64,000 nt of DNA from an uncultured Bacteroidia bacterium. GTDB taxonomy: Bacteria; Bacteroidota; Bacteroidia; J057; CALAJH01. The notes under the pieces were generated by a model. The model ran no database searches. It saw only the letters and a list, made by a program, of their open reading frames with translations, and was not told the origin of the DNA. The position numbers were made by a program, and so were the translations under genes. Positions 4,754-64,000 of this stretch are shown piece after piece. The stretch lies in the NCBI GenBank assembly GCA_937922655.1, contig CALAJH010000030.1, forward strand, positions 1 to 64,000, read 5' to 3'. Position 1 is the first letter of the stretch, and every line of letters starts with the position of its first letter.

Positions 4754-7700
4754 ATGACGAAAATATACCTAGTCTTGGGAATATTGGGCGTTTGGTCGAC
4801 GGCCGCCTATGCCCAGCAGTGCAATATCATTTACGTTACGCCGAACGGCGCGACTTCCGGCGTCGCCGGTACTCAGGACAATCCCGCCGAAATCAACTAC
4901 GCCGTTTCTTTGGTTTCGGAGCAAACCCGGCATATTTTCTTGGCTTCGGGCGTTTATACGTTGAACACCACTTTTCCTTTGGTGGACGGCGTAACTTTCG
5001 AGGGCGGCTTTGACCCCGAAAATTATTGGGCCAAAACCAACGCCGCACCCACGCTCATTATCCGCACCAATCAAAACCCTCAACAAAATCCGTTTCGTAT
5101 CGTCGGCATCGAGGCCGTGAACGTTTCCAACTTTAAGCTTCAGGACGTGGATTTGGTCGTCAACGATGTAACGTCGTTGGGCAACGGATGCTCTTCGTAC
5201 GGGTTGTATGTCCGTGGTGCGTCGAATTACCGTATTGTTCGATGCTCGTTTCGTTCGGGCAACGCCGCCGACGGTATGGACGGCGCCAACGGTTCGCCGG
5301 GCGTCAACGGTTCGCCGGGCGTCGCAGGCGCCAACGGCAACACTCAATGTGCTCAGTTTCAATGTCCGGGTACGTGTTCGGGAAGCAATGCGGGCGGTGC
5401 GGGCGGCAACGATTGGTCGGGCGGCGCGGCGGCGGGTGGCGCGGGCGGCAACGGAGGACAAAAAGGCTGTATTTCCGCGCTTTTTGGTTTGCCTTTGCCC
5501 GGAACCGAACAAGCTTTTCCCGGAACGTCGGGTAATGCCGGCAATGGGCCGGGCGGCGGCGGCGCAGGTTTGGGCGGGCAAGGGGTAACCGTCATCGTCG
5601 GCGGCTCTTGTCCCGCCGACGCCGCCGCCAGCGGTACGCCGGGAGCCGACGGCGCCAACGGTGAAGGCCGAAACGACAATCCCTTGCTTTACGACGGAAC
5701 CAACGGCGTCGCCCAACACTCGTCAGGGTTTTTTATGCCCGGCGACGGAACCGACGGCGTCGATGGACAAGACGGCTCAGGCGGAGGCGGAGGCGGAGGC
5801 GGAGGCTCGCTTGCCTCCTTCTTTTCCGGCAATCTTGGCGTTACGGGGTTGGGATGCGGCGGCGGCGGCGGCGGAGAGGGTGGACAGGGCGGAAGAAAAG
5901 GACGCGGTGGACGCGGCGGCGGCGCCTCTTTCGGCGTTTATCTCTGGAACGGCGGCGCCGGCGGAAAATTTATCGATTCCCGTGCCGATGCCGGCAATCC
6001 CGGACGCGGCGGTCGAGGCGGCGTTGGCGGCAATGGCGGCAACGGCGGCAACGGCGGTAACGGCGGCGGAACCGCCGACCCGCCCGTCTGCAACATCGGA
6101 CGCGGCGGACGCGGCGGACGCGGCGGACGCGGCGGCAACGGCGGTAACGGTGGTAACGGCTCAAACGGTATTTCCCGCCCCCTTTACCGACACAACACCC
6201 CCAATTCCGCCTTCGACTCCCTCAATTATCGTTCCCCCAACGAACCCGCCGTCAAAGTCTTTTACAACGGATGTTCCAAAAGTCGGGTCCGTTTTCAAAT
6301 CGACGCTTCGGGTGAAATCGTTTGGTTTTTTGGCGACGGCGCACAACCCATTGCCGCGGGAGGAACAAACGTCGAAGCCAAATATCAAACCCTCGGACGC
6401 AAAACCATCACCGTGCTCGTTAACGGCCAACCGTTTACTTTCTCCGATTTTATCCACATCCGCGAAGACGGCGCCCCCTTCCTTACCTACATCGAATCCA
6501 ATCACGACACCATCTGCTCCGGCTTTACCCCCCTGTTCCGTTCGTCGCTCACCGACGCCCTCCGTTACGATTGGAAAATCGAAGGCCTCCAACCCCAACT
6601 GCCCGACTACGATTTTCCGTCCGTTCCATGGAACTTTATCAACAACATCGTTTTTGAAACCCCGGGCGACTATCGAGTCGTTATGCGAAGCTATACGGCA
6701 TGTTGCGGATATTCCGAATGGGACACCTTTAATGTACACGTCCGGGCCAACCCCGCTCCGTCAATAAATTTGGTCTCCCAAAGCAATATTTCCGTCGGTA
6801 TCGAACAAAATCCTGTAACCTTTATCGCCAATACGACCAACGTCGGTCCGAATCCCGTTTACGTTTTTTATCTCAACGGTCAGCTCGTTCACTCTTCCAC
6901 CTCGCCAATATGGACGACGAGCGCCATTCCCGTCGGAATTCATACCGTTCGTGCGGGGGTGGTGATTTTTACCGAATGCTTGAACGGCGATACGATTTTT
7001 TCCAACACCCTCAACCTTAAAGTGCTGCCGCGTGAAATTTTTGTCATCGGCCAAAACCGGTACGCCGACCAAAACAATTCGTGTATTACCGTCCGCCAGT
7101 TGAATCCGGGGTCGAATTTCCGTCCCGGCGAACCGATTTATTTGTCGGTGGTGCGCATATTTTTCGACCCCGACATCACCTTGTATTCTTATTGGGATTT
7201 GGGCGACGGACGGGGAGCGACCGGCGACACCATTATGATTGTCTACGACCAAGCCGGCGATTATACCGTTACCGTGGCGCCGGGCGACGAAAACGGCCGA
7301 CTTTTCGACGAACCGGCATGTTCGCTCACGCTTCGGATTCGCCCGTATGTCCGGGCGCAATTTGGCGCCGATGTTTTTGGCGGCTGCGCTCCTTTGACCG
7401 TGAATTTCTCGAACCAAAGTATCAACGCCGCGAGTTACGTTTGGGACTTTAGCGACGGCGCCCCCGTAGTAACCCACGCTTCTCCGACGCACACCTTTCT
7501 TTCGCCCGGCGTCCATCGCGTGCGGCTTTTCGCATTTGGCGGTTATTCCAACGACGTCGATACGGTTTCGGGGGTCGTTACGGTATTTCCAAGACCCACC
7601 GCCGATTTTAACGCCGTTCCCGCCCTCGTTTGGGGCGGAAACGATACCGTTCAATTCAATTCCAACGCCAAAGGCGCGGTGAAATGGTTTTGGGACTTTG

Positions 7701-8119
7701 GCGACGGCAATACTTCCGAAGAACGCGACCCCCGACATTTCTATCCCGTCAAGGGAAAATATACCGTTGCGCTGGTTGTCGAAAGTCCGGGCGGGTGTCG
7801 GGACACGGTCGTCAAAACCGATTACATAAACAAACTTTTCAACGTTGCCCGCCCCCAACAAACCGGATTCGCCTCCTTAACGCTTTATCCCAATCCCAAC
7901 GACGGACGTTTTACCCTTTCGTTTGCGACGGATAAAGCCGAACGCTTTACCGCAACGTTCGAGGATGCTTTGGGGCGAAAAATCGGTACGCCTTTCGGCG
8001 GTACAACCGTGCCGGGGGAGAATCGGGTGGATTTTTCGTTTGCGGCGCCGGCCGGCGTCTATCTTTTGCGCCTAAGCGTCGGCGCCCGCACGACGGCCGT
8101 ACCCGTGGTCGTCAAATGA
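4754..8119 (+). CDS. Secreted glycine-rich/PKD repeat protein, T9SS type A cargo
   Basis: A 1121-residue secreted protein. Residues 1-21 are a signal peptide ending AAYAQ. Residues 22-95 (IIYVTPNGATSG, then FLASGVYTL and VTFEGGF) resemble the start of a parallel beta-helix of the DUF1565 kind. Residues 172-475 are extremely rich in Gly, with Gly-Gly-Asn/Arg and collagen-like DG.[NQ]G repeats. Around 510-560 lies a beta module with WFFGDG, followed by PKD-like domains marked WDLGDG (about 812), WDFSDG (about 894) and WDFGDG (about 979). Residues 1041-1121 are a T9SS type A sorting domain opening LTLYPNPNDGRF. Substrate or partner is unknown; a surface adhesin or matrix role is inferred. The first half shares its module order with the giant 51898 gene. 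A strong terminator follows. Confidence 0.85.
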   Translation: MTKIYLVLGILGVWSTAAYAQQCNIIYVTPNGATSGVAGTQDNPAEINYAVSLVSEQTRHIFLASGVYTLNTTFPLVDGVTFEGGFDPENYWAKTNAAPTLIIRTNQNPQQNPFRIVGIEAVNVSNFKLQDVDLVVNDVTSLGNGCSSYGLYVRGASNYRIVRCSFRSGNAADGMDGANGSPGVNGSPGVAGANGNTQCAQFQCPGTCSGSNAGGAGGNDWSGGAAAGGAGGNGGQKGCISALFGLPLPGTEQAFPGTSGNAGNGPGGGGAGLGGQGVTVIVGGSCPADAAASGTPGADGANGEGRNDNPLLYDGTNGVAQHSSGFFMPGDGTDGVDGQDGSGGGGGGGGGSLASFFSGNLGVTGLGCGGGGGGEGGQGGRKGRGGRGGGASFGVYLWNGGAGGKFIDSRADAGNPGRGGRGGVGGNGGNGGNGGNGGGTADPPVCNIGRGGRGGRGGRGGNGGNGGNGSNGISRPLYRHNTPNSAFDSLNYRSPNEPAVKVFYNGCSKSRVRFQIDASGEIVWFFGDGAQPIAAGGTNVEAKYQTLGRKTITVLVNGQPFTFSDFIHIREDGAPFLTYIESNHDTICSGFTPLFRSSLTDALRYDWKIEGLQPQLPDYDFPSVPWNFINNIVFETPGDYRVVMRSYTACCGYSEWDTFNVHVRANPAPSINLVSQSNISVGIEQNPVTFIANTTNVGPNPVYVFYLNGQLVHSSTSPIWTTSAIPVGIHTVRAGVVIFTECLNGDTIFSNTLNLKVLPREIFVIGQNRYADQNNSCITVRQLNPGSNFRPGEPIYLSVVRIFFDPDITLYSYWDLGDGRGATGDTIMIVYDQAGDYTVTVAPGDENGRLFDEPACSLTLRIRPYVRAQFGADVFGGCAPLTVNFSNQSINAASYVWDFSDGAPVVTHASPTHTFLSPGVHRVRLFAFGGYSNDVDTVSGVVTVFPRPTADFNAVPALVWGGNDTVQFNSNAKGAVKWFWDFGDGNTSEERDPRHFYPVKGKYTVALVVESPGGCRDTVVKTDYINKLFNVARPQQTGFASLTLYPNPNDGRFTLSFATDKAERFTATFEDALGRKIGTPFGGTTVPGENRVDFSFAAPAGVYLLRLSVGARTTAVPVVVK
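5270..6170 (+). repeat. Low-complexity Gly-rich coding repeat
   Basis: Within the T9SS gene, about 300 codons are dominated by GGC/GGN, with tandem units such as GGCAACGGC and GGACGCGGC. At DNA level this gives short direct repeats prone to slippage, and it produces long spurious ORFs in other frames. It encodes the Gly-Gly-Asn and Gly-Gly-Arg runs described for the protein. Confidence 0.85.
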
Positions 8120-13386: not shown

Positions 13387-16300
13387 ATGAACATACGTTT
13401 TATTCTCACGTTTGCCTTTGCGTGCATTGCAACGATTTCGGTCGTCGCTCAACCCGCCTATCAAAGACTGTACGGCACGACGGCCGACGACGGCGCCTAT
13501 TTCATCGGCGATTTGCCGACGGGCGGGCGTTACTTGGCAGGGTACACGGAAATCGGCGGCACGCGAGACGCTTTACTCGTCGTTTGGAACGCGGCCGGCG
13601 AAATAGCTTTTGCCCGTCGCTTCGAGGCCCCCGGCAACGACGAGGCTTTCTGCGCCCAACCCACCCAAGACGGCGGCTTTGTCGTCGTCGGCAATCAATA
13701 CAACGCCACCGGCTCTGATATTTTCGTGCTAAAAACCGACGGCGCGGGCAATCTTCTTTGGCGACAGGTTATCGACGGCGGTTTTGACGAAAGGGTTTAC
13801 GGAAAAAGCGTGGTGGCAACGGCGGACGGCGGCTACGTCGTCGTCGGCTCGCGTTCGGCCGCCGCCTGTCCCGACGGCTCTTGTTACCGGACGTTCGTCT
13901 TCAAGTTAAGCGGGGCGGGCGCCGTCGTTTGGGGACGGGAACTGGAAATCTCTCCCGGCGCCTTGGATTACGCCTCGGCGGTCGTTCAACTTCCGACGGG
14001 CGAAATACTGATGGCCGGGCGCAAAGAGGGCGGCGCCGGCGGCGCCGACGGCTTTTTGACCCAAGTGAGCAACGCCACGGGCGGCGGCGCCCAAACCCGA
14101 CTTTTTCACGGCCCCAACGGAAATCCCTACGAATATTTTACCGACCTGACCCCCACCCCCGACGGCAACTATGTCATCGGTGGATTGCAAGGGCAGGGCG
14201 CCTCCAATGTTATGTTTTTGCGCGTAACGGACGCGCAAGGCAGTCCGGGGCCGTTTCCTATCGGACGTTGGCTCGACGGCGGCGCCACCGAACGCGGCTG
14301 TAAAGCCATGCAAACGGCCGACGGCGGTTTCGCTCTTTGTGCATACCGCGAAACGGCCGGCGCCGCCTCGGGTAACATGTTCGTCGCGCGTTTCGACCCA
14401 ACGGGAACGATTCTTTGGAGCCGAACCGTTGGCGGCGCCGCCGCCGACACCGCCGCCGCCTTCGTCGAAACCCCCACCGGTTTTTTGCTCGCCGGAAAAA
14501 CCGCCTCCTTCGGCGCCGGCGGAACCGATATTTACCTCGTCCACATCATCAACGACGGCCCGTCCGCCGCTTGCAGCACCAACGTCATTCCCCCCACCCC
14601 TTCCAATCACAACTACATCCCCACCGTCGACAACGTCAATGCCACCCTCCTTAACTTCACTCCCACTTCGGTCCCCGTCCCCGTCGAAGACGTTGTCTTA
14701 ATTGAGGAGGACGCTTGTTGCGCCGGTTTTAGGATTGACAACTTAACGGCCAACGCGGGTTGTGCCGGCGGTTTTACCGAGTTTTCAGTGGCGCCCGTCC
14801 TGCCCGCGCCTGCGCAGTATCAATGGGATTTCGACGGCGACGGCGTAACCGACGAAACCACCACCGGCGGCAATTCTCAATTTCGTTATCCCGTCCCCGG
14901 TACGCGAACCGTGCGCGTCTACGCCTTCAACCCCGTTACGGGTTGCATCGACTCGGCGTTTGTTTCGGTGGAGGTGTTGGCCAATCCCACGGTCGTCTAC
15001 GCCACGCCCGATACGACGGTGTGTGTCGGTTCTCCGGCGGCGATGACCGTCGTTTCGGGGCCGGGCGTGCAAATCACGTGGGCGCCCGACGACGGTACGC
15101 TCAATACTCTCTCGGGTTCGAACGTTGTGGCGCAAAATTTGCCCGTCGGCGTTTACGTCTATACCGTTATGCTTTACGACGCGGCGGTGGGTTGCGGCGG
15201 GGATACCACGGTGCAAGTTACCGTTACCGAGGGGCCGACGGCCGACGCGGGGCAAGACCGCACCGTTTGTTACGGTGAAAACGCCACGCTCGTCGGCGCC
15301 GGCGGAAGCGAATATCTTTGGCTCCCCATCAATTACTTCAACGACCCGACGCTCCAAATTCAAACCGTCGTCATGACCGAAAGCCGGGACTTTTATTTGC
15401 GCGTCGGCGACGGATTCGGTTGTTACGACTACGATACCGTTCGAATCAACGTTCTGCGGGCCAACGCCGGCAACGACACCATTTATTGCATCGGTTCGGT
15501 GGGAACGCCCCTTCGCGCTTCGGCCCCCGGCGGCGGCACGGACTGCGTTTTTCAGTGGCTGACGAATTACAACATCGTCGGTGGAGGCGCCGACAGTATT
15601 TTGGTCAATCCGGGCGTCGATACGTGCTACGTGGTGCAAGTAACGTGTCAAGGCTGTGTTACGCGCGATACCGTGTGCGTTACGCGCGTGCCTTCGCCAA
15701 CGGTCGTTGCGCAGGTCGGGCAAATCGAAATGTGCTTTGGGGATACGGTAACGCTTTCGGCAAGCGGCGCCAACTTTTGGGGCTGGTTTCCCAACACGGG
15801 TCTGGAAACCCCGACGCAAAGCACAACCCGTGCCTTTCCCGAAGAAACGACGCAATACATCGTTTTCGGGGCCGACGACAACGGTTGTATCGACAGCGAG
15901 GTCGTTACGGTCGTCGTCTACAATTTGCCGTTTCCCGTTTTGGCCGATACGGCCGACATGTGTTTGGGGGATACGTTGACGCTTTTCGGGGCCCCTTATC
16001 AACAAGGGGTGATATATCAATGGTCTCCGCCGATAGGCATCGTTCCGGGTTTTCAGGGTTTGGCGACGATACGTGTTCGTCCGCCCGTATCGACGACCTA
16101 TACGCTCCGCATCCGCAACGCGGACTACGACTGCGTCGAACGCGTCGATTCGATATACGTTCGGGTTACGCCCAAACCGGGCTTGCTTTTCGGCGGCAAT
16201 CCGCAAATTCGCTGTTCCAACGGGCCCGGAGTCGTTTTGGACGCCGCCTTTCAAAGCCAAACTTCCAATCCTTGCACGTTTGTCTGGTCGCCGGCGGCAA

Positions 16301-25043: not shown

Positions 25044-25185
25044 ATTTCTTTCGTCGTCTTTTGCCGGCGGTGTTTTTGAATTTGAAATTTTATTTTTCGG
25101 GCTCCCGTTTTCGGAACAATACAATAATCGCAGCCTAAAATACGGTAAACGCAAAATGCCGTGTTTTGGGATTAGGACACAAAAA

Positions 25186-51897: not shown

Positions 51898-54800
51898 ATG
51901 AACAACCTATACTTTTTTACCGCGTTCGTCGTCGTGTTCGTGTGGAGGACGTTGTCGGCCCAAGTGTTGCCGGAGCAGTTTCGGAGCCTTTCCTCCGAGC
52001 AAATGCTTCAGCCTCCGCGCCCGGAATTGCCGAAATACGACCCTTACGACCCCGAATTTCAACGCCTTGCGTTGAAAAAACAGGCGGAAATGGAAGCGTT
52101 CGTTCGCAAATGGAACGCGGAAAAAGCTACAATAGAACCCTACGACTACGAAGCGGCGAAAAACAACGCCCGTCGCGCTTCGCGCGGCCCGGACCGTGCC
52201 GGAGGCGGCCCACCGCAACCCGACGGCAACCCCTTGCCCAACGAACCCGAACAGAACTGCAACGCCGCCATTCCCGTTTGCCAGAATCAATACACGCAAA
52301 CACAATCCTATTCCGGCTTTGGAACCATTCGGGATATCCTTCCTTCCACCACCTGCTTGGGAACGGGAGAAACCAACTCCGTGTGGTACATCTTTACCGT
52401 TCAAAACAGCGGCGTGTTTACTTTTAGCTTGCGTTCCCCCCCGGGCCAACCCCAACGAGACTACGACTTCGCTCTTTACGACGTAACCAACATTACCTGT
52501 GCCGACATTCCCGGCACTATCCCCGTTCGATGCAATTATTCGGCGGACTATGCCGAAACGGGTATGCGTGCGCCCGCCCAAGCGGGAAACAGTAGCATTC
52601 CCGCCTCCGGTTCCCCTTGGTCGCCCGCGCTTAACGTAACCGCCGGACAAACTTTCGTCCTCGTCGTTAACAACTTTACCGGCGACAACACCGGTTATAT
52701 TTTGACTTTCGGCAATGGCGGAGGTTCGCCCGTCGCCTCGATTTTCGACCAAATTCCGCCCACCGCATCGTTGGCCCCTTCGTCCTGCGACGGTTCGCAG
52801 GTCGTCGTTAATTTTTCCGAACCTATTCGTTGTTCATCCATCAGCCCGACCGATTTTTACATCAACGGCCCGCCGGGCGCCAATGTCGTCGTTAATTCCG
52901 TTTCCGTTCCCGAATGCGCCAACGGCGGCACTTACGCCAACTCCGCCACCGTCAATTACACCGTCAATAATTTTGTGCCGGGGAGTTATTCCATCGGCGT
53001 GCAACAGGGTACGGACGGCAATACGTTGTTGGACGTTTGTCAAAATCCGATGGCGCCGGCGGTCTTGGGCAATTTCACCCTGAACGTGGGGGCGCAAATT
53101 ACGGGGGCCGACACGGTGTGCATTGGACAGTCCGTAACGCTTTGCGGCCCGCCCAACGCCGGCCCTTACTCATGGAGCGGCGGGCAAACCACGCAATGCA
53201 TTACGGTAACCCCTACGTCCACGACCACGTACACTTTGAATACCGGAACGGCTCCATGCGTTTCGACGGCGACGGCTACCGTCGGCGTCCGCCTCGAACC
53301 CGAGGTTTTCGTCAGTCCGTCAAACACTTCTCTTTGTGAAGGCGGAAGCGTCGATATCACCGCGTTTTCCAACGTCCCCGCCGCCACCATTTATTGGTTG
53401 CCCCCCGTCAATTCCACCAACCCGACCATCACCGTAAGTCAGTCCGGTACGTTTCAGGTTATTGCCTATACCGCCGGTTGCACGTCCGACGTGAAAACGG
53501 CGACGGTCGCCGTCAATCCGCCGCCCCCCGCCGCCTCTTGCAACATTTATTACGTATCGCCTACGGGTAACGGCGACGGCATTTCCCCTCTTTCCCCGAC
53601 GCAAATTCGTACGGCGCTGGAAATGTCGAATTGTACGCCGTCGGTGATTAAAATGCAGGTCGGTACATACGAAATTGACGATGCTTTGCCATTGGGCAGT
53701 CTGGTGACCGTCGAAGGCGGATATAATTACGACTTTTCCCAAAAGACTTCGGCCAAAGGCACGTCGGGTACATGGCCCAATATCGGCACGCATATCTTGC
53801 GTCGTCAGCGCCCCGCGTCCCCCACGACCGTCGGCCCTTTCACTTTTACCAACAATACGGGTCAGGCCATTGCCGACAACACGACGACCAACATCCCTTT
53901 GCAGGTAAACGGCGTTCCCACTCTTCCAAGCCCGATGACGGGTTATACCATGAACGTTACCGTCAACGTCAATCATACCCGATTGGACAACTTGGACGTG
54001 TATCTGGTGGCGCCGAACGGAACGATGGTTACGCTGTTTCAAGATATCGGCGGCGCGTGTAACGGTACCATCAACATCACGCTCGCCAACACGGGCGGGG
54101 CGGCGGGTTTGGCCGCGCAATTTTGCGTCGGCGCCCAAATTACCGGAACCTATCAGCCGATGGAAGTTTTCGGTTCGTTTTTGTCCTTGGGCGGTATCGA
54201 CCCCAACGGTTTGTGGCAATTGCGTATTGTGGACGACACCCCCGGAAATACCGGCAACTTTGTTTCCTGCTCCATTACATTCGGACAACAAAACGTTTCC
54301 AACGGTTACCTGTGCGATTATGGTTTTTTGGCAACTTATGCCAATTCGGAATCGCCGTCGGTTTCCGCTTTTGACGTCTTTACGGGGGCTTCGAACTTTC
54401 GTTTGCAGGATTTGATTATCGAGGTCGAACCGGCGCCGACGGGTTATCGTATTTCCAACTATGGCGTGCGTACGGGTGCGGGCGTAAACAATTTTAACAT
54501 CGTTCGTTGCCATATCAACGTGGGCAAAGGTTCGGATGCGGCACAAGGCGCACCGGGACGCAATTGGGACGGCACGCAATCGAACAGCAACACTGTTTCC
54601 AATGCCTCGTCGGTGCGGGCCGAAGCGGGCGGCGTGGGTGCGGCGGCGGGTGTGGATTGCACCCCGGCAACGGGAGGCGCCGGGGCCGCTTCCGCTTTGG
54701 GAAGACCCGGCGGCGACGGAGGGATGGGCGGTGGTTGCAATTGCGTAACCCCGCCAACCGTCGGACAACCCGGTTTCGGACCGGGAGGAGGAGCCGGCGG

Positions 54801-57800
54801 AGGTCTTCCCGCCGATCAATGCCGCGATTCGGGCGGAACCCCTTCCGGTTGCGACGACCCCGGCCCCGTTTACTACGGTCGCGACGGCTTGAACGGACAA
54901 GACGGCACGCCCGGTGCCGATGGCGCCAACGGCGCCGTCCCCAACTATTTTGGAGGGATTTTTAATCCGGGCGGCAACGGCCAAACCGGACAAGTCGGCG
55001 ACCACGGATGGGGCGGCGGTGGCGGCGGCGGCGGGGCCGGCGACCAAGACCTCGCCGAAGACCGTGGCGCCGGCGGCGGCGGCGGTGGAGCCGGCGGCCG
55101 TGCCGCGCAACAAGGCGGCGGCGGCGGAATTTCGGCCGGCGGCTCGTTCGCTCTTTTTGTCGTAGACCCCGGCGCCGGCGCCAACGTCGTCGATTGCATT
55201 TTGACCACCGCCCTCGCAGGCGGAAATCCTACCGGCGGATTTCGCGGCTGGGGACAATTGGGAGGTTTGGGAGGCAACGGCGGCGCATGGTGCGACGGCG
55301 GACAAGGCGGACGCGGTGGCGACGGCGGACAAGGCGGAAATTCCGGACAAGGCGGAAACGGCCATCCCGGCGTCGCCATCGACTACGCACGCGTCAATTC
55401 CACCGCCGGTTCCGTGACCAACGTCCCTTACACCGATTTTAACGCCCTGCTAACCCAACCCGTTATCCGTGCCGACAACGTCGCCTGCACCAATCTCGAC
55501 GTTCCGTTTTATTCGGGAGCTTCGGGAAGTTGGTCGTTTAATCCCGCGCAAAGTTCGCTCGTCGGCAATCCCGGAACCAATCCTATCGCCCGTTTTTCCA
55601 ACGTCGCATGGTACGACGTTATCCGTTCGGGCGATACTTACTCCGATTTTTGGGGTATTTTAACCAACCCCGACGCCGTTACCCCGTCTATCGAAGTCAT
55701 CCCGGGGACGACCGTTTGTCGTGGAAGTACGGTTACGTTCAACGGTTTGGGTTCGGGCGGATTGTATTCGTGGTTTATCTACCAAGGTTTGTCGAGTCAG
55801 GGAGCGTTGATACACAACGAATCGGGAACGTCGATGTCTTATACGTTCACCGAACCACCCGGTCAGTATGAAGTCGAATTGGAAGTGGTGTCGTCGTGTT
55901 GCGGGCCTTTGCCGCCGGTTTCGGTGATGATCACCGTCGTTCAGGCCCCGAATTACACTTTACAAAATTTTAACGAGTGTGTCGGTACGCCCGTAACGCT
56001 CACACCTAGTCCGGCTCTTCCGCCCGGCGCCACCGTTACATGGCAACCCGGCGGATTTATCAACAATTCGATTACCGTCAGTCCCGAGGCGACCACCGTA
56101 TACACGCTTTATGTTTTGTCTCCCGAGGGTTGTCCTTCCCTGCCCGTTACAAGTACGGTTACCGTGCGTCCGCGTCCGAACATCACGGGCGTAACGGGTC
56201 CCGAATCCATTTGTCAGGGGCAATCGGTAACGTTCACGGCGCAGGGCGGTACTCCCGGTTCTACTTATCGTTGGTTTCGGGATGGAAACCTTGTGTTTAC
56301 AAGCTCAAGCAGTGCATCCTATACTTACACGCCGTTTTACAATCCGCCCGACACTACGGACGTTATTCAGGTTACGGCTTCGTTGAACGGTTGCGACGGC
56401 GATATGCTTACGCATTATTTGTTGATAGCGGGCATTCCCAACGCCGTCGTAGACGCGGCCGACGACCCGATATGTTTGGGCGAAAGCGTTACGCTTGTCG
56501 CCTCGGGTGGAAAACGCTTCGAATGGTCGACCACCCCCAACTTTTCCGCCAACGTGTTCGAGGGCGATTCGGTCGTCGTTACGCCGACAAGCGTTGGCAC
56601 CGTTACTTATTATTTGCGCAGTTACAACCTGAACTGTCCGTGCATTCCGATGCCCGGAACCGATTATTGTGCCGAGATATCGATACCCGTGGTCAATGCG
56701 CCGCAATTCGACGTTCCGTCGGATATGACGGTTTGCCCCGGAGCGACTGTTACCTTGACGGCCGCAAACACGGGGGCAATGCCGTCCGTTCGGCGTTGGG
56801 AGACGCTCACGGGAACGAACTTGTGTTCGGGCGGCGGCAATTGTGTGAGCGTAAATGTCAGTCCCGCAACGACGACGACTTACGTTTTTTACGCTCGTTC
56901 GGGAAACGGTTGTGAATTTCGACGGGAGGTAACGGTAAACGTCGGCAGTCCCGACATTGTGGCAACGGCTTCGGCGAACGATGTTTGTCCCGGCGCGGCG
57001 GTAACGCTGTCGGCGACGGGCGGCACGACTTACACGTGGTCGCCGGCGGCCCATTTATCGGCAACTACGGGGGCGAACGTAACCTTTACCGCCCCCGCCG
57101 CCGGTACCTATAATTATACCGTGACCGGTACGGGCGCCGGCGGATGTACCGCCAACGCCGAAGTTTCCGTTACGGTGGTGGACGTTCCTACGATTTCCGT
57201 GACGGCGTCGGTTAATCCGATTTGCCCGGGCCAACTTTCGACGATGACGGCCAACGGCGCCGGCCCGGGGGCGACGTATTCATGGTCGTGGCCCGGCGGC
57301 GGCCCCATCAACGGCCAACAATCCGTTACCGATTCCCCGCCCGCCACCCGAACTTACACCGTTACCGCCGTTACCGCCTCGGGCTGCACTTCGCAAACAA
57401 CCTTTACCCTCAACGTCTCCCCCAATCCGACGCTTACCGTTTCCGCCCCGCCGATATGCGTGGGAGCGACGGCGAACTTCACCGCCAACGGCGCCGCAAG
57501 CTACGTCTGGGAAGGGCCGCATTTGAACGAAACGTCGGGACAAAGCGTAAGCGCCGCCCCGCCCGCCGCCGGCACCTACAACTATACCGTTACCGGTACG
57601 AGCGCCGCAGGTTGCACGGGTACGCGAGCTTTTGCCCTTACCGTTAATCCGCTTCCGACGCCCACCGTTTCTCCCGTTCAAACCATATGTGCGGGGCAAT
57701 CGGCCAACCTCACCGCTTCCGGCGGGACGTCTTATCTCTGGATGCCGCCCAATTTGGCCCAACAAAACATTACCGTTTCCCCGAACGTCTCCACCGTTTA

Positions 57801-60800
57801 TACCGTTACCGTTCAAGACGCCAACGCTTGTACCCAAGAAGCAACGACGACCGTTATCGTGCGGCAGTTGCCGCAAATTTCTTTCGACCCGCCCGCACCC
57901 GCCATATGCATTGGTTCGTCGGTGGAGGTATCCGTTGCCGGTGCGGAAACGTATACCGTCGTTCCGAACGTTGGCGCGTCGTTAATCGGCAACGTCTTTA
58001 CCTTCAACCCCGGCGCCACCCAAACTTACGTCGTTACCGGTACGGACAACGCCGGTTGCCAAAACACGGCCTCGATTACCGTTGCCGTCAATCCTCTGCC
58101 GACAATAACCGTAACTCCGCCAAGTCCCGCGATTTGTCCGGGTGGAAGCGTTACGCTGACCGCGAACGGCGCCGTTGGTTACGTTTGGAACGGCGGAAAT
58201 TTGAACAACGTCTCCGGCGCAAGCGTTGCCGTTTCCCCCGACGTGCCAACGACTTACACCGTCGTCGGCACGGATGCGAACGGTTGCGTCAATCAAACCA
58301 CCGTTACCGTCAATATCAACAATCTTCCCAACGTTACCGCCGGCACGAGCGACGACGAAGTTTGTGTGGGCGAGACGGTAACGCTGGCGGCGGCCAACGC
58401 CTTGACGTACGTTTGGAACGGAACGGGTCTTGACAACGCTCCCGGCTTTCAACAAAACGTTTCTCCGCCCGTCGGTACCCATACGTATACCGTCGTGGGT
58501 ACGGACGTAAACGGTTGTCAAAATACCGCCACGGTATCGTTTGTCGTTCATCCGTTGCCGAACATAACCATCGACCCTCTGTTTCAAGAAATATGCTTTG
58601 GCCAGTCGGCGTTGCTGACGGCTTCCGGCGCCGTTTCTTGGGCGTGGACCGACGACGGTATGCCTCTCCCGCAAACAACGGCTTCCGTAAACTTGGGATT
58701 AAGTTTGGGTAACAACGTCATCGTCGCCACGGGTACCGACGCCAACGGTTGCGTCAATACGGCCACGGCCAACGTCATGGTCTACGCTTTGCCGACGTTG
58801 AACGTATCGCCGAGTCCCGCCGTGATATGTTTGGGTCAAACGACGACGCTTTCCGTCTCCGGCGCGCAAAACTACTCTTGGGACGGCCCTGCCGCCGCCG
58901 GACTCGTTTCCACCGACGGCGCGAGCGTGAACGCCACGCCCACCGCCGCAGGTGTGCATACCTTCACCGTTACGGGTACCGACGCCAACGGTTGCGTCAA
59001 TACGGCCACGGTGAGCGTTACCGTCAATCCATTGCCCGTTGTAACCTTCGACCCGCCGGCGCCCGTGATTTGTCGCGGACAAACGGTTGCCGTAACCGCC
59101 GCGGGCGCCCAAAGTTTTGTTTGGAACGGCGGCGGACTCAACAACGCTCCCGGAGCCGTCCAAACCCTTGCCCCCCTTGTAACCACCGTTTATACCGTTA
59201 CCGCTACCGACGCGAACGGATGCCAAACTACGACCGAATTGACGCTTCTCGTCAATCAACTGCCCGAACTCTTCGTAAACCCGTCGGGTCAGGAAATTTG
59301 TGCGGGCGAAAGCGCGACCGTTGAAGCTTATGTTTTTCAACCTTCGGCCAACGACGTTTTCGTTTGGAACGGCCCGGGAATAAACAATTTTATCGGCTCC
59401 ACCCTTGTCGTTTCCCCCATCGACGATTATAACGAATACACCGTCGTCGTTACGGATGAAAACGGTTGTCAAATCGATAATACGGCGGTAGTCGTCGTCA
59501 ATCCTTTGCCCGTTATTGCCGTTAGTCCCGCCAACCCCGCGTTGTGTTTGGGGCAAACAACGGTTCAACTTTCCGCCTCCGGAGCGGCGACTTACGAATG
59601 GTTCCCGTCCACGGGTCTTTCTCAGGACGATATCGCCAATCCCGTCGCCAATCCCGCCCAAACCACTACTTACACCGTTGTGGGAACGAGTGCGACCGGA
59701 TGTGTGAACTCCGCCACGGTTACCGTTACGGTGAACGTTCCCCCGACGGTTGTCGCCGCCTTGGATAGAAATACGATATGCGTCGGTCAATCGGCGCAAT
59801 TAACGGCCTCCGGCGCCGCGACTTATCTTTGGACGGGGGGCGCCGTGGACGGACTGGGCGGAAACGTCCATACCCTTTCCCCGCCCGTCGGCCAACATAC
59901 TTACGCCGTCGTCGGCACGGACGCCAACGGTTGCACCGGACAAAGTACGATAAGTTTGACGGTACTGGCCTTGCCGATGGCGACGCTCTCCCCTTCGGCA
60001 ACGGAAATATGCGTCGGTCAATCGGTTACGCTGGAATTGACGGGAACGGATTTGGCGACGTGCGTTGTCACACCGGGTCCCGTTTCGGGTTTCAACGCGA
60101 CGTTTAGCCCGCCCGTCGGAACGCATACCTATACCGCGACTTTCACCGACGTTATGGGTTGTGAAAATACGGCCACGGCGACGATAACGGTGCATCCTTT
60201 GCCAAACCCAATGGTTACGCCCGCCAATCCGGCGATATGTTTGGGGCAAAGCGTGGAATTGACGGCCTCGGGGGGAACGAATTACGTTTGGAACGGCGGA
60301 AATTTGAACAATGTTTCGGGTGCGTCCCAAACCGTATCCCCCAACCAGACCACGACCTATACCGTTACCGTTACCGATGCGAACGGGTGCATCAATACCG
60401 TGCAAGTTACCGTTACGGTCAATCCATTGCCCGTATTGACGGTTACGCCGCAAAACGAAGAGCTTTGCGACGGCGAAAGTTTGTCTTTGGCCGCTTTTGG
60501 CGCAAACGCTTACGTTTGGAACGGCGAAGGTTTGTCCAATGCCGCCGGCCAAAGCCATACCTTGGCTCCGCCCGTCGGTACGCATACGTATACGGTCGTT
60601 GGAAGAAACAATGCCACGGGTTGCGAATCCGAAGGTACGGTAACGATAACGGTTCACGCCAATCCGGCGCCCGTCGTCGTTCCGAGCGGACCGACGGAAT
60701 TTTGCGCGGGCGGTTCGGTAACGCTGGATGCGGGTGCGGATTACGTGCAATACGATTGGGGTACGGCCGGCAATACTCGAACGATAACCGTTTCGACTTC

Positions 60801-63800
60801 GGGCCAATACGGCGTTACGGTGACGGACGCCAACGGATGCGTCGGTTCGGCGTCGATAGAGGTAACGGTTTGGCCCTTGCCCGCGCCCGTGATTTTACCC
60901 CTTAGACCGTTGGAATTTTGCGACGGCGATTCGACGATTTTGGACGCGGGCCCGGGATACGCGCAGTATTTGTGGTCCAATTCCGCAACGGAGCGTTTGG
61001 TTATCGTTCCTATTTCCACAACCTTGTCCGTTACGGTAACGGACGCCAACGGTTGCGTGGCGACTTCCGCTCCCGTAACGACGGTGCGTCATCCCAACCC
61101 CGTGCCGCAAATTTCGGGGCCGAACTCGTATTGTCCCGGCGGGACGGCGACGCTCGACGCGGGCGCAGGTTTTGCCCAATATCAATGGACTTTGGACGGC
61201 GTCGAGATAGCCGGCGCAACGACGCAAACCCTTACCGTTTCCGAACCCGGAGAATACGGCGTACGTGTTTCGACGGCTTTCGGTTGCACCGCCGTTGACG
61301 TTCATGCGGTGGATGAAAATCCCGAGGTGCAATTGCAAATTTCCGGGCCGACGGCGTTTTGCCCCGGCGGCTCGACAACCTTGGACGCGGGTGCGGGTTT
61401 TGTGAGTTACCAATGGTCTTCGGGCGAAAACACGCGTTTTATCACCGTTACCGAAGCGGGTTCGTGGACGGTCGAAGTCGAGGACGCTTTTGGATGCACC
61501 GGGATTTCGCCGCCGCATACGGTGAATTACCATCCCGTTCCTGCGCCGACGGTTACGGGTCCGGCGGGTTTTTGTCCCGGCGGTTCGGTTACGCTCAACG
61601 CCGGCGCGGTTTACGTTCAATACCAATGGAACGACGGAAACACCAACCCCACCCGCACCGTCGATGCGGAAGGTTTTTATTTCGTAACCGTGACGGATGC
61701 CAACGGTTGTGTCGGTACCTCGGAACCGTTTTTTGTCGATGAATACGACACGCCTTCGCCCGTCGTTCAAGGGCCGCTCACTTTTTGTCAAGGCGACGGC
61801 GTTACGCTTTTTTTGCCCGACTCCGCCGAATATACCTCCATCGTCTGGCGGGTTGGCGCAACGAACGTCGGTACGGGCGGTTCGCGCTATTTCGACGAGA
61901 CAACCTCCAACATCACGGTGCAAGTGGTGAGCGTTCAGGGTTGTCCGGGCGTTTCGACGAACGTTTCCGTGACCGAGTTCGACCAATTATTGCCCACGAT
62001 ATCGGGTCCGGAGGCGGTTTGTGCCGGTGCGCACGCCGTTTTGACCGCCGACGGAGGATATGCCGTTTACGAATGGTTTTTGAATGGCACGCCCGTAGCC
62101 GGCGGCAACGAACAGACTTTGACCGTTGCGACGGCCGGCGATTATACCGTTCGAGTGGAGGATGCGTTCGGATGTGAAGGCACGTCGGCGCCGTTTGCGT
62201 TTGTAGTGAACGCTTTGCCGAACGTTACGGCACAAGCCGCGCCGATATGTGCGGGTCAAACGGCCGTTCTTACCGTATCGGGCGCCGAAACCTATGTCTG
62301 GAACGGCGGAAACCTTGACAACGTCGTCGGTCAAACGGTATCCGACGCTCCCGTCCTTACGACCGAATACACCGTTACGGGAACGGACGCCAACGGATGC
62401 GTCAATACCGCAACGGTTACGCTGACGGTCAATCCGCTTCCCGTGGCGGGTATCGACGGCGCAACGGTTTTTTGTACGGGACAAAGCGCCCAACTCACCG
62501 CTCTTCCCGACGGTATGACGTATTTATGGAGTACAAACGAAGAATCGCGTACGATTACCATCGTCGCCGGCGGGGATTATTCGGTTACCGTTACCGATGC
62601 GAACGGGTGCGTCAATCATTTTGGTGTAACGGTGGTGCAGCTTGATAGTTTACAGCCCGTGGTTGTCGGTCCGTCGGCGTTCTGTTCGGGGTTGTCGGCT
62701 CAACTTTGCGTCGAAAACCCGTTGAATTACTCGACGTTCGATTGGCGCTTGAACGGTGCATCGATCGGCGCCGGCGCGTGCGTTGGCGCTTCAATGCCCG
62801 GAACGTATACCGTTCACGTAATGAATGCGGCGGGCTGCGCGGGTTCGGCAACGTTCAATTTGACGGAAAACGCTTTGCCGAACGTTGTGGCGCAAGCCGC
62901 GCCGATATGTGCGGGTCAAACGGCCGTTCTTACCGCATCGGGCGCCGAAACTTACGTCTGGAACGGCGGAAACCTTGACAACGTCGTCGGTCAAACGGTA
63001 TCCGACGCTCCCGTCTTTACGACCGAATACATCGTTACGGGAATGGACGCCAATGAATGCGTCAATACCGCAACGGTTACCCTTGTCGTAAACGCTTTGC
63101 CGACTTTTGTCGTTTCCGGCCCTATGACCGTTTGCGAAGGTCAAACGGGAACGATAACCATTGACGCGGCCAATGGAGCGACGGTAACGTTTTGCGACGG
63201 TACGTCGGGCAATACGTTCGTTTACAGCCAAACGACGACGTGCGATTTTATTGTAACGTCCGATGCGGGTTGTGTTTCCACGGGCGTACTCAACCTGACG
63301 GTGGCCGATACCGCTCAACCCGTCGTTTTGGGTACGTTGGCGTTTTGTGCGGGTTCGAGTACAATTTTGAGTTTGGAAAACGCCGGCAATTATTCGGCCG
63401 TCGAATGGACGACGAACGAAACCGGCCCCGAGATTACGGTCGACGTCCCCGGCGTTTACGGCGTACGGGTACACGACGGCTCGGGTTGCTGGGGTCGGGC
63501 GGAGGTGGCGGTGGTCGAAAATCCGAATCCCGCGCCGCAAATCTTGGGCGCAAGCGCCATATGCCCCGGTGCAGCGGCGACCTTAAACGCCGGTGCGGGC
63601 TTTACAGGCTATCAATGGTTTTTGAACGCCGGACCGATTGTCGGTGCAACGGGACAAAGTTACACCGCCGGCGTGCCGGGCGAGTATTCCGTTACCGTTA
63701 CGAACGCAAACGGTTGTACGGGAACGGCCACGCACACGCTGGCTTTCCACCCGCTTCCGGATTCGACGATTTCGGGCGTTTTGTCGTTTTGTACGAACAA

Positions 63801-64000
63801 CTTTACCACATTGACCGCGCCGTCGGCGCCGCAAGGTTCGACGTACGAATATCTTTGGGGGCCGGATGGACAAACCACTCAATCCATCGTTGTTACCGAG
63901 GGCGACCGTGATTTTTGGGTGCGGGTTACGGACGCGGCCACGGGCTGTTTTTCCGACGATACGGTGTACGTTTTTCAGGCCGATACGCTCGAACCGCAAA
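51898..64000 (+). CDS. Giant secreted Ig-repeat/glycine-rich surface protein (3' end outside window)
   Basis: One frame stays open from the ATG at 51898 to the right edge, at least 4034 codons; the ORF track omits it because no stop is reached. Order: signal peptide MNNLYFFTAFVVVFVWRTLSAQ; Pro/Asp-rich linker to about 115; a pre-peptidase-like beta domain about 130-270 (FTFSLRSPPG, YDFALYDV); Ig-like domains to 540; a beta-helix-start-like segment 548-621 (IYYVSPTGNGDG, VGTYEIDDALPLG, VTVEGGYNY); a proprotein-convertase P-domain about 640-802 (NHTRLDNLDVYLVAPNGT, DPNGLWQLRIVDD); a glycine-rich block about 880-1160; then roughly 35 tandem Ig-like repeats of about 77 residues (ICxGQxxxLTASGA, YxWNG, TYTVTGTDANGC). 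A T9SS sorting domain is expected beyond the window. An adhesin or matrix role is inferred. Confidence 0.9.
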   Translation, partial: MNNLYFFTAFVVVFVWRTLSAQVLPEQFRSLSSEQMLQPPRPELPKYDPYDPEFQRLALKKQAEMEAFVRKWNAEKATIEPYDYEAAKNNARRASRGPDRAGGGPPQPDGNPLPNEPEQNCNAAIPVCQNQYTQTQSYSGFGTIRDILPSTTCLGTGETNSVWYIFTVQNSGVFTFSLRSPPGQPQRDYDFALYDVTNITCADIPGTIPVRCNYSADYAETGMRAPAQAGNSSIPASGSPWSPALNVTAGQTFVLVVNNFTGDNTGYILTFGNGGGSPVASIFDQIPPTASLAPSSCDGSQVVVNFSEPIRCSSISPTDFYINGPPGANVVVNSVSVPECANGGTYANSATVNYTVNNFVPGSYSIGVQQGTDGNTLLDVCQNPMAPAVLGNFTLNVGAQITGADTVCIGQSVTLCGPPNAGPYSWSGGQTTQCITVTPTSTTTYTLNTGTAPCVSTATATVGVRLEPEVFVSPSNTSLCEGGSVDITAFSNVPAATIYWLPPVNSTNPTITVSQSGTFQVIAYTAGCTSDVKTATVAVNPPPPAASCNIYYVSPTGNGDGISPLSPTQIRTALEMSNCTPSVIKMQVGTYEIDDALPLGSLVTVEGGYNYDFSQKTSAKGTSGTWPNIGTHILRRQRPASPTTVGPFTFTNNTGQAIADNTTTNIPLQVNGVPTLPSPMTGYTMNVTVNVNHTRLDNLDVYLVAPNGTMVTLFQDIGGACNGTINITLANTGGAAGLAAQFCVGAQITGTYQPMEVFGSFLSLGGIDPNGLWQLRIVDDTPGNTGNFVSCSITFGQQNVSNGYLCDYGFLATYANSESPSVSAFDVFTGASNFRLQDLIIEVEPAPTGYRISNYGVRTGAGVNNFNIVRCHINVGKGSDAAQGAPGRNWDGTQSNSNTVSNASSVRAEAGGVGAAAGVDCTPATGGAGAASALGRPGGDGGMGGGCNCVTPPTVGQPGFGPGGGAGGGLPADQCRDSGGTPSGCDDPGPVYYGRDGLNGQDGTPGADGANGAVPNYFGGIFNPGGNGQTGQVGDHGWGGGGGGGGAGDQDLAEDRGAGGGGGGAGGRAAQQGGGGGISAGGSFALFVVDPGAGANVVDCILTTALAGGNPTGGFRGWGQLGGLGGNGGAWCDGGQGGRGGDGGQGGNSGQGGNGHPGVAIDYARVNSTAGSVTNVPYTDFNALLTQPVIRADNVACTNLDVPFYSGASGSWSFNPAQSSLVGNPGTNPIARFSNVAWYDVIRSGDTYSDFWGILTNPDAVTPSIEVIPGTTVCRGSTVTFNGLGSGGLYSWFIYQGLSSQGALIHNESGTSMSYTFTEPPGQYEVELEVVSSCCGPLPPVSVMITVVQAPNYTLQNFNECVGTPVTLTPSPALPPGATVTWQPGGFINNSITVSPEATTVYTLYVLSPEGCPSLPVTSTVTVRPRPNITGVTGPESICQGQSVTFTAQGGTPGSTYRWFRDGNLVFTSSSSASYTYTPFYNPPDTTDVIQVTASLNGCDGDMLTHYLLIAGIPNAVVDAADDPICLGESVTLVASGGKRFEWSTTPNFSANVFEGDSVVVTPTSVGTVTYYLRSYNLNCPCIPMPGTDYCAEISIPVVNAPQFDVPSDMTVCPGATVTLTAANTGAMPSVRRWETLTGTNLCSGGGNCVSVNVSPATTTTYVFYARSGNGCEFRREVTVNVGSPDIVATASANDVCPGAAVTLSATGGTTYTWSPAAHLSATTGANVTFTAPAAGTYNYTVTGTGAGGCTANAEVSVTVVDVPTISVTASVNPICPGQLSTMTANGAGPGATYSWSWPGGGPINGQQSVTDSPPATRTYTVTAVTASGCTSQTTFTLNVSPNPTLTVSAPPICVGATANFTANGAASYVWEGPHLNETSGQSVSAAPPAAGTYNYTVTGTSAAGCTGTRAFALTVNPLPTPTVSPVQTICAGQSANLTASGGTSYLWMPPNLAQQNITVSPNVSTVYTVTVQDANACTQEATTTVIVRQLPQISFDPPAPAICIGSSVEVSVAGAETYTVVPNVGASLIGNVFTFNPGATQTYVVTGTDNAGCQNTASITVAVNPLPTITVTPPSPAICPGGSVTLTANGAVGYVWNGGNLNNVSGASVAVSPDVPTTYTVVGTDANGCVNQTTVTVNINNLPNVTAGTSDDEVCVGETVTLAAANALTYVWNGTGLDNAPGFQQNVSPPVGTHTYTVVGTDVNGCQNTATVSFVVHPLPNITIDPLFQEICFGQSALLTASGAVSWAWTDDGMPLPQTTASVNLGLSLGNNVIVATGTDANGCVNTATANVMVYALPTLNVSPSPAVICLGQTTTLSVSGAQNYSWDGPAAAGLVSTDGASVNATPTAAGVHTFTVTGTDANGCVNTATVSVTVNPLPVVTFDPPAPVICRGQTVAVTAAGAQSFVWNGGGLNNAPGAVQTLAPLVTTVYTVTATDANGCQTTTELTLLVNQLPELFVNPSGQEICAGESATVEAYVFQPSANDVFVWNGPGINNFIGSTLVVSPIDDYNEYTVVVTDENGCQIDNTAVVVVNPLPVIAVSPANPALCLGQTTVQLSASGAATYEWFPSTGLSQDDIANPVANPAQTTTYTVVGTSATGCVNSATVTVTVNVPPTVVAALDRNTICVGQSAQLTASGAATYLWTGGAVDGLGGNVHTLSPPVGQHTYAVVGTDANGCTGQSTISLTVLALPMATLSPSATEICVGQSVTLELTGTDLATCVVTPGPVSGFNATFSPPVGTHTYTATFTDVMGCENTATATITVHPLPNPMVTPANPAICLGQSVELTASGGTNYVWNGGNLNNVSGASQTVSPNQTTTYTVTVTDANGCINTVQVTVTVNPLPVLTVTPQNEELCDGESLSLAAFGANAYVWNGEGLSNAAGQSHTLAPPVGTHTYTVVGRNNATGCESEGTVTITVHANPAPVVVPSGPTEFCAGGSVTLDAGADYVQYDWGTAGNTRTITVSTSGQYGVTVTDANGCVGSASIEVTVWPLPAPVILPLRPLEFCDGDSTILDAGPGYAQYLWSNSATERLVIVPISTTLSVTVTDANGCVATSAPVTTVRHPNPVPQISGPNSYCPGGTATLDAGAGFAQYQWTLDGVEIAGATTQTLTVSEPGEYGVRVSTAFGCTAVDVHAVDENPEVQLQISGPTAFCPGGSTTLDAGAGFVSYQWSSGENTRFITVTEAGSWTVEVEDAFGCTGISPPHTVNYHPVPAPTVTGPAGFCPGGSVTLNAGAVYVQYQWNDGNTNPTRTVDAEGFYFVTVTDANGCVGTSEPFFVDEYDTPSPVVQGPLTFCQGDGVTLFLPDSAEYTSIVWRVGATNVGTGGSRYFDETTSNITVQVVSVQGCPGVSTNVSVTEFDQLLPTISGPEAVCAGAHAVLTADGGYAVYEWFLNGTPVAGGNEQTLTVATAGDYTVRVEDAFGCEGTSAPFAFVVNALPNVTAQAAPICAGQTAVLTVSGAETYVWNGGNLDNVVGQTVSDAPVLTTEYTVTGTDANGCVNTATVTLTVNPLPVAGIDGATVFCTGQSAQLTALPDGMTYLWSTNEESRTITIVAGGDYSVTVTDANGCVNHFGVTVVQLDSLQPVVVGPSAFCSGLSAQLCVENPLNYSTFDWRLNGASIGAGACVGASMPGTYTVHVMNAAGCAGSATFNLTENALPNVVAQAAPICAGQTAVLTASGAETYVWNGGNLDNVVGQTVSDAPVFTTEYIVTGMDANECVNTATVTLVVNALPTFVVSGPMTVCEGQTGTITIDAANGATVTFCDGTSGNTFVYSQTTTCDFIVTSDAGCVSTGVLNLTVADTAQPVVLGTLAFCAGSSTILSLENAGNYSAVEWTTNETGPEITVDVPGVYGVRVHDGSGCWGRAEVAVVENPNPAPQILGASAICPGAAATLNAGAGFTGYQWFLNAGPIVGATGQSYTAGVPGEYSVTVTNANGCTGTATHTLAFHPLPDSTISGVLSFCTNNFTTLTAPSAPQGSTYEYLWGPDGQTTQSIVVTEGDRDFWVRVTDAATGCFSDDTVYVFQADTLEPQ
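54530..55380 (+). repeat. Glycine-rich coding block in the giant gene
   Basis: About 280 codons dominated by GGC/GGN, with GGxGGxGG runs and collagen-like DGxxGxDG. It matches in style and position the 5270-6170 block of the other glycine-rich T9SS protein. Confidence 0.8.
62233..62420 (+). repeat. Copy 1 of a near-identical 188-base direct repeat
   Basis: By direct comparison this stretch matches 62893-63080 with eight differences, exactly 660 bases apart and in the same reading frame. It codes for one Ig-like unit (AAPICAGQTAVLTVSGAETY). Confidence 0.9.
62893..63080 (+). repeat. Copy 2 of a near-identical 188-base direct repeat
   Basis: The second copy of the 62233-62420 unit. Most of its eight differences read as C to T or G to A relative to copy 1, and they change the usual TDANGC motif to MDANEC. 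Confidence 0.9.

Follow-up and report, generated by a model that had tools for sequence, protein, structure and literature searches.

Calculation shows that two large proteins encoded by an uncultured Bacteroidia bacterium share a conserved, collinear domain of about 530 residues, which combines a β-helix-like start, a glycine-rich region of fixed register and a PKD-like module, and that this domain recurs in proteins bearing C-terminal signals of the type IX secretion system (T9SS). Both proteins lie in the window, that is, the whole stretch of DNA analysed (64,000 nucleotides, positions 1 to 64,000 of contig CALAJH010000030.1). From the placement of the domain within these proteins we infer a position at the tip of surface fibres and a part in adhesion, the role of tip adhesin being our best guess. 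We give a probability of roughly 55% to the view as a whole, namely that of a co-evolving β-helix/polyglycine-II/PKD domain acting as a distal adhesin on T9SS fibres. The protein family is new, although the polyglycine-II structural kind is itself already known.

Two copies of the domain in the window

The sequence-only reading had described a common order of parts in the two proteins, and reading frames, motifs and order all bear it out: the observation is real and conserved. The limits of the domain had to be redrawn, to approximately 4820-6470 in the first protein (P0001) and 53539-55668 in the second (P0002). The N part of P0001 carries, in order, the landmarks CNIIYVTPNG, EGGF, SNFKLQD and SYGLYVRGASNYRIVRC, and its type A tail scores 29.5 bits against TIGR04183, for a cut-off of 23. 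The open frame of P0002 reaches 5212 codons in the full contig. Its copy is interrupted by a P-domain (PF01483) within the N part, which that reading had missed. This P-domain is of the proprotein convertase type. A P0002 counterpart in another genome (L084) also has a P-domain (PF01483) at the same position of the N part, and the insertion is therefore both ancient and tolerated.

The region read as one glycine-rich block is indeed rich in glycine and consists of two blocks, split by a conserved strand segment. Likewise the β module noted near a single cysteine is present, its identity being that of a degenerate PKD-like domain. The remainders of the two proteins, thought to differ, are both PKD/Ig arrays followed by a T9SS tail (Table 1).

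Table 1. Parts of the two domain-bearing proteins, in window coordinates
Feature	Position	Strand	Basis or remark
P0001, first protein with the domain, 1121 aa, T9SS cargo	4754..8119	+	ORF, PKD domains, T9SS tail
P0001 N part: β-helix cap and first coils	4820..5266	+	alignment, AlphaFold strands 3-145
P0001 Gly-rich insert I, ~219 aa	5267..5923	+	predicted polyglycine-II helices, loops of variable length
P0001 return β-helix coil within Gly region (ASFGVYLWNGGAGGKFIDSRADA)	5924..5992	+	alignment, strands 370-390
P0001 Gly-rich insert II, ~59 aa, GGXGGX	5993..6169	+	alignment
P0001 degenerate PKD-like domain, conserved GC (VFYNGCSK ...)	6239..6469	+	
P0001 Ig/PKD array after the domain	6470..7828	+	PF18911, PF00801
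P0001 T9SS type A C-terminal sorting domain	7883..8116	+	TIGR04183
P0002, second protein with the domain, type B T9SS tail	51898..64000	+	continues beyond window
P0002 N part, first half (CNIYYVSPTG ... VTVEGGYN)	53539..53727	+	profile search, alignment
P0002 P-domain (PF01483) inside β-helix part	53950..54282	+	Pfam
P0002 N part, second half (FDVFTGASNFRLQD ... NFNIVRCHINVGKG)	54370..54531	+	profile search, alignment
P0002 Gly-rich insert I	54532..55143	+	Gly-block profile
P0002 return coil SFALFVVDPGAGANVVDCILT	55144..55206	+	alignment
P0002 Gly-rich insert II	55207..55371	+	Gly-block profile
P0002 PKD-like module (TQPVIRADNVACTN ...)	55453..55668	+	alignment, module profile
P0002 Ig repeat stretch, sequence-similar to Aureispira GhpA	58741..61191	+	phmmer E 7.2e-87

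Direct BLASTP between the P0001 and P0002 segments was not significant (E 0.079). The two copies are too diverged for this comparison, and it is family profiles that link them. A profile of the seven other paralogues, built without P0002, recovers the first N segment of that protein (hhalign E 2.4e-11), and both N halves are found in the profile search of the genome (E 3.6e-11 and 8e-7). The Gly block of P0002 is matched by the Gly-block profile (E 2.7e-26), and its PKD-like module gives a weaker match (E 0.0014, probability 17%). Chance similarity is excluded, because the glycine register survives a shuffle control and the domain recurs across many genomes.

Unity and distribution of the domain

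The source genome encodes eight proteins with the domain, of which two are those of the window, a third is encoded downstream of them on this contig and the remaining five lie elsewhere in the assembly; all eight align collinearly from the first cysteine to the PKD/Ig region. Three of the genome's domain-bearing proteins measure about 4800-5200 residues. Among intact copies the N part, Gly block, return strand and module always occur together, and the pairwise distances of the parts correlate (r 0.54-0.70, permutation p 0.001). Since the parts co-evolve and are never found apart, they would form one duplicated domain rather than the mobile cassette of unrelated proteins that had been proposed; the hosts are T9SS cargo with PKD/Ig repeats. 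The whole looks like a single domain multiplied through gene duplication, and the proposal of a dedicated structural unit common to both proteins stands. Neither Pfam nor NCBIfam holds a model naming it, in line with the earlier remark that the combination had no name.

The profile of the N part matches 18 of 60 relatives, with up to nine matches per genome. Searched with the full 555-position profile at E <= 1e-10, 78 of the 395 genomes sampled from the class give a match, in many cases from end to end; with only three candidates scored per genome, the copy counts are minimum values. When 84,980 species genomes were scanned, 78 contig loci came out. Each of them belongs to a record whose title names a Bacteroidota metagenome assembly, a clade restriction that holds for the narrow peptide patterns on which the scan relied. 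Partial matches to the β-helix cap occur in other Bacteroidota. In the rest of the phylum the match is confined to the first 50-65 residues, and these N-profile matches were rejected as family members, being ordinary β-helix proteins without a comparable Gly-rich block. A search of plasmids gave no match, the gene neighbourhood offered nothing informative, and a match in a viral contig (L169) was set aside as fortuitous, the sequence suggesting a phage tail gene. In several relatives (loci L051, L055, L058, L060 and L079), two or three proteins with the domain, of about 1100 and 1250 aa, are encoded in tandem.

Glycine register and predicted fold

The Gly region comprises about 220 residues, the return strand SFxVFLxNNGxxGxIxDC and about 60 more residues. 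When the Gly blocks of 64 proteins are aligned, 75 columns contain at least 90% glycine. In a subset of 16 proteins, the real sequences have 74 such columns. Shuffled residue by residue they have 18, 16, 21, 22 and 25, and shuffled by triplets 16-23, all sets having been aligned with the same aligner. In the run preceding the return coil, exactly 22 residues separate the marker glycines in 64 of 64 proteins, and the loops between Gly runs vary in length (4-32, 21-43, 11-33 and 9-20 residues in the 64 proteins). The Gly block is thus not random low complexity. It would be very surprising if these blocks were low-complexity insertions growing by repeat slippage and devoid of fixed structure. Glycine-rich sequence is prone to expansion, and short tandem repeats do exist in the DNA (5282-5323, 6017-6144 and 55297-55356), but a register held over 64 proteins, constant segment lengths, mixed glycine codons (GGC 69, GGA 26, GGT 19, GGG 5), confident AlphaFold models and a Gly-block profile whose matches in the source genome are all to proteins with the domain speak against such an origin. 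Nor are the blocks collagen-like: the long uninterrupted G-X-Y run is absent, the longest GXX run from the block start being 8-9 triplets with much of the rest GGX, and PF01391 scores 15.5 bits for a cut-off of 27.2. Regular GGX/GXX runs with a conserved glycine register are present, as in polyglycine-II sandwich proteins.

AlphaFold models the whole domain with a pLDDT of 88.2 and a pTM of 0.76 (64 sequences), and the Gly block alone with 87 and 0.82. In both models the Gly part is almost devoid of helix and strand, and in the domain model it is mostly confident. This confident non-helix, non-strand structure, together with the GGX periodicity, leads us to predict, as very probable, a polyglycine-II sandwich made of two long inserts between β-helix coils, the packing itself being a prediction of a program that may favour ordered packings on glycine-rich input. 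Strands of the β-helix flank the large insert, 3-145 before and 370-390 after. Such a fold is consistent with the polyglycine-II bundle attached to a β-helix that had been suggested from the sequence. The idea of a linear rod capped by a β-helix calls for revision: with the Gly blocks between the coils, a side lobe or fin is the more likely shape.

Foldseek aligns the start of the domain with rhamnogalacturonan lyase and Pel9A; elsewhere in the model its matches are PKD domains, including those of collagenases. The single-Cys module, with the motif GCTNSxVxF...WxFGxGA...GRKTIT, has weak Pfam PKD matches in some of 30 members and is a degenerate PKD domain. A full-length catalytic β-helix was not found, about 170 residues matching the lyases; Pfam named no enzyme in the window copy, and the DUF1565 profile had no match to the proteins of the family. 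Compared with the whole PDB, the Gly block alone gave two Foldseek matches at E <= 10, the glycine-rich domain (GRD) of ALK and the Pam3 fibre, which are suggestive only, at E of about 8-10 with very low TM-scores between Gly-rich structures. A sequence search of the PDB with the whole profile returned only apparent low-complexity glycine matches, and a library of viral structures gave pectate-lyase-like β-helices and low-probability collagen matches, the combination being absent from it.

Position on T9SS cargo and possible function

A T9SS tail was found in every complete relative scanned, with 34 type B and 22 type A hits among 56. Most paralogues of the source genome have a type A or B signal; one (L013) lies just under the type B cut-off and another (L015) has no tail within the stretch read. 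In the short proteins of the scanned relatives the domain stands at the very N-terminus, with a start at most 81 open codons in, and in the giant ones it begins 494-692 residues in, the Ig/PKD array being always on its C-terminal side. Because it is the C-terminus that anchors T9SS cargo, a domain on the N-terminal side would be expected at the outer end of the fibre or close to it.

In the mechanism that we propose, a truncated right-handed β-helix with a pectate-lyase-like start, too short for an enzyme, would extrude two glycine-rich inserts between successive coils, and these would pack as a polyglycine-II sandwich, after which comes a degenerate PKD domain. Placed N-terminal to PKD/Ig arrays that end in a type IX secretion signal, the domain would be exported and exposed towards the tip of a surface fibre. 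There it would act as a distal adhesin, a binding module whose ligand would differ among the paralogues of one cell.

The closest structural parallel is gp38 of phage S16, whose polyglycine-II sandwich is formed by two extended turns of a β-helix (PMC6851490). In S16 and PP01 gp38 (PDB 6F45 for S16) two glycine-rich turns likewise leave a β-helix to build the sandwich (PMC6851490, PMC12892980), and in our model the insertion lies at the same kind of place, between β-helix coils. In contrast, no sequence match with gp38 was found, the Gly region, at about 280 residues vs 73, has roughly four times the length, the domain is borne by a bacterial T9SS protein, and its loops are not hypervariable in close orthologues. 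Indeed, over 49 close pairs we count 0.22 differences per site in the loops and 0.20 in the β-helix part, the fastest sites being the non-Gly positions of the Gly runs (0.35); loops do vary between paralogue groups. These rates weaken the case for a receptor arms race like that of gp38. They suggest either that ligand specificity, if any, is stable in orthologues and specific to each paralogue, or that the domain is a structural cap. We regard as tentative, at somewhat less than even odds, the narrower proposal that uncultured Bacteroidia possess a cellular, clade-specific counterpart of the gp38 tip on their T9SS fibres, with the paralogues as a repertoire of binding heads.

Other systems share some features. 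A glycine-rich lattice is attached to a β domain in the Pam3 gp24 fibre and in the glycine-rich domain of ALK/LTK, but the host fold there is TNF-like and not a β-helix (PMC9608196). For the mycobacterial PE_PGRS, which are also found at the surface, AlphaFold predicts GGX-rich polyglycine-II sandwiches (PMC10216338), although these proteins follow another export route, have a PE domain and no β-helix host, and vary widely in PGRS size, whereas size and register are conserved here. Right-handed β-helix polysaccharide lyases (rhamnogalacturonan lyase 5olr, Pel9A 1ru4) and DUF1565 are akin in that their β-helix cap matches the start of the domain, but the ordinary relatives lack a comparable Gly-rich block. 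Myxobacterial proteins annotated as 'PE-PGRS family' may have a similar layout of β-helix and Gly-rich sequence. Aureispira GhpA (grappling hook protein A) is also a giant protein whose Ig stretch resembles the Ig repeats of P0002, but it lacks the domain, with no profile match at E <= 0.1, and homology over the whole protein was not found.

The reading that competes most directly with a distal adhesin is a purely structural one, in which the polyglycine-II fin, free of any specific ligand, caps the N-terminus of the Ig stalk as an end-piece or rigid spacer and shields it against proteolysis or aggregation. The regular fold of conserved size, the lack of hypervariable loops among close orthologues and the rapid change of non-Gly sites in the Gly runs, as at neutral exposed positions, would suit such a cap. 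However, a genome can have as many as nine diverged matches, and loop length differs between paralogues; both exceed the needs of a plain cap, which leaves it unlikely in our estimate. We consider it more doubtful still that the domain is a matrix or self-assembly element, with polyglycine-II faces or edges that stack and glue fibres or cells in a silk-like manner, or possibly bind ice or surfaces as in snow-flea antifreeze proteins. One antifreeze protein is known to contain a polyglycine-II bundle of GGX type, and such bundles have been proposed for other Gly-rich proteins (PMC13243192, PMC10216338), but no ordered face, whether flat and Thr-rich or of another kind, was shown here, and the relatives, judged by record names, come from varied habitats. 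The Antarctic Flavobacterium ice-binding protein, described as a β-helix with TXT motifs, was considered and does not belong to the family.

To our knowledge few polyglycine-II sandwiches have been solved; the known cases are phage proteins, an animal receptor and an antifreeze protein. A well-aligned, widespread bacterial family with high-confidence models would supply a cellular example, and its sequence depth would suffice to read the folding rules of polyglycine-II lattices. It would also provide a class of candidate binding heads at the surface of Bacteroidota, for a large section of the phylum that is uncultured.

The window also encodes other proteins of note. A large PKD/Ig protein of 1789 aa (13387-18756) has a CHU_C T9SS signal and no copy of the domain, and a subtilase (32059-34773) weakly matches the SprB repeat close to its C-terminal end. 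The gene at 235-1227 codes for a VWA protein of the tellurium-resistance type, in which a metal-binding TerY-C domain is present, and at 25156-27408 lies a protein with a PLD-like nuclease/phospholipase domain, DUF5689 and a T9SS tail.
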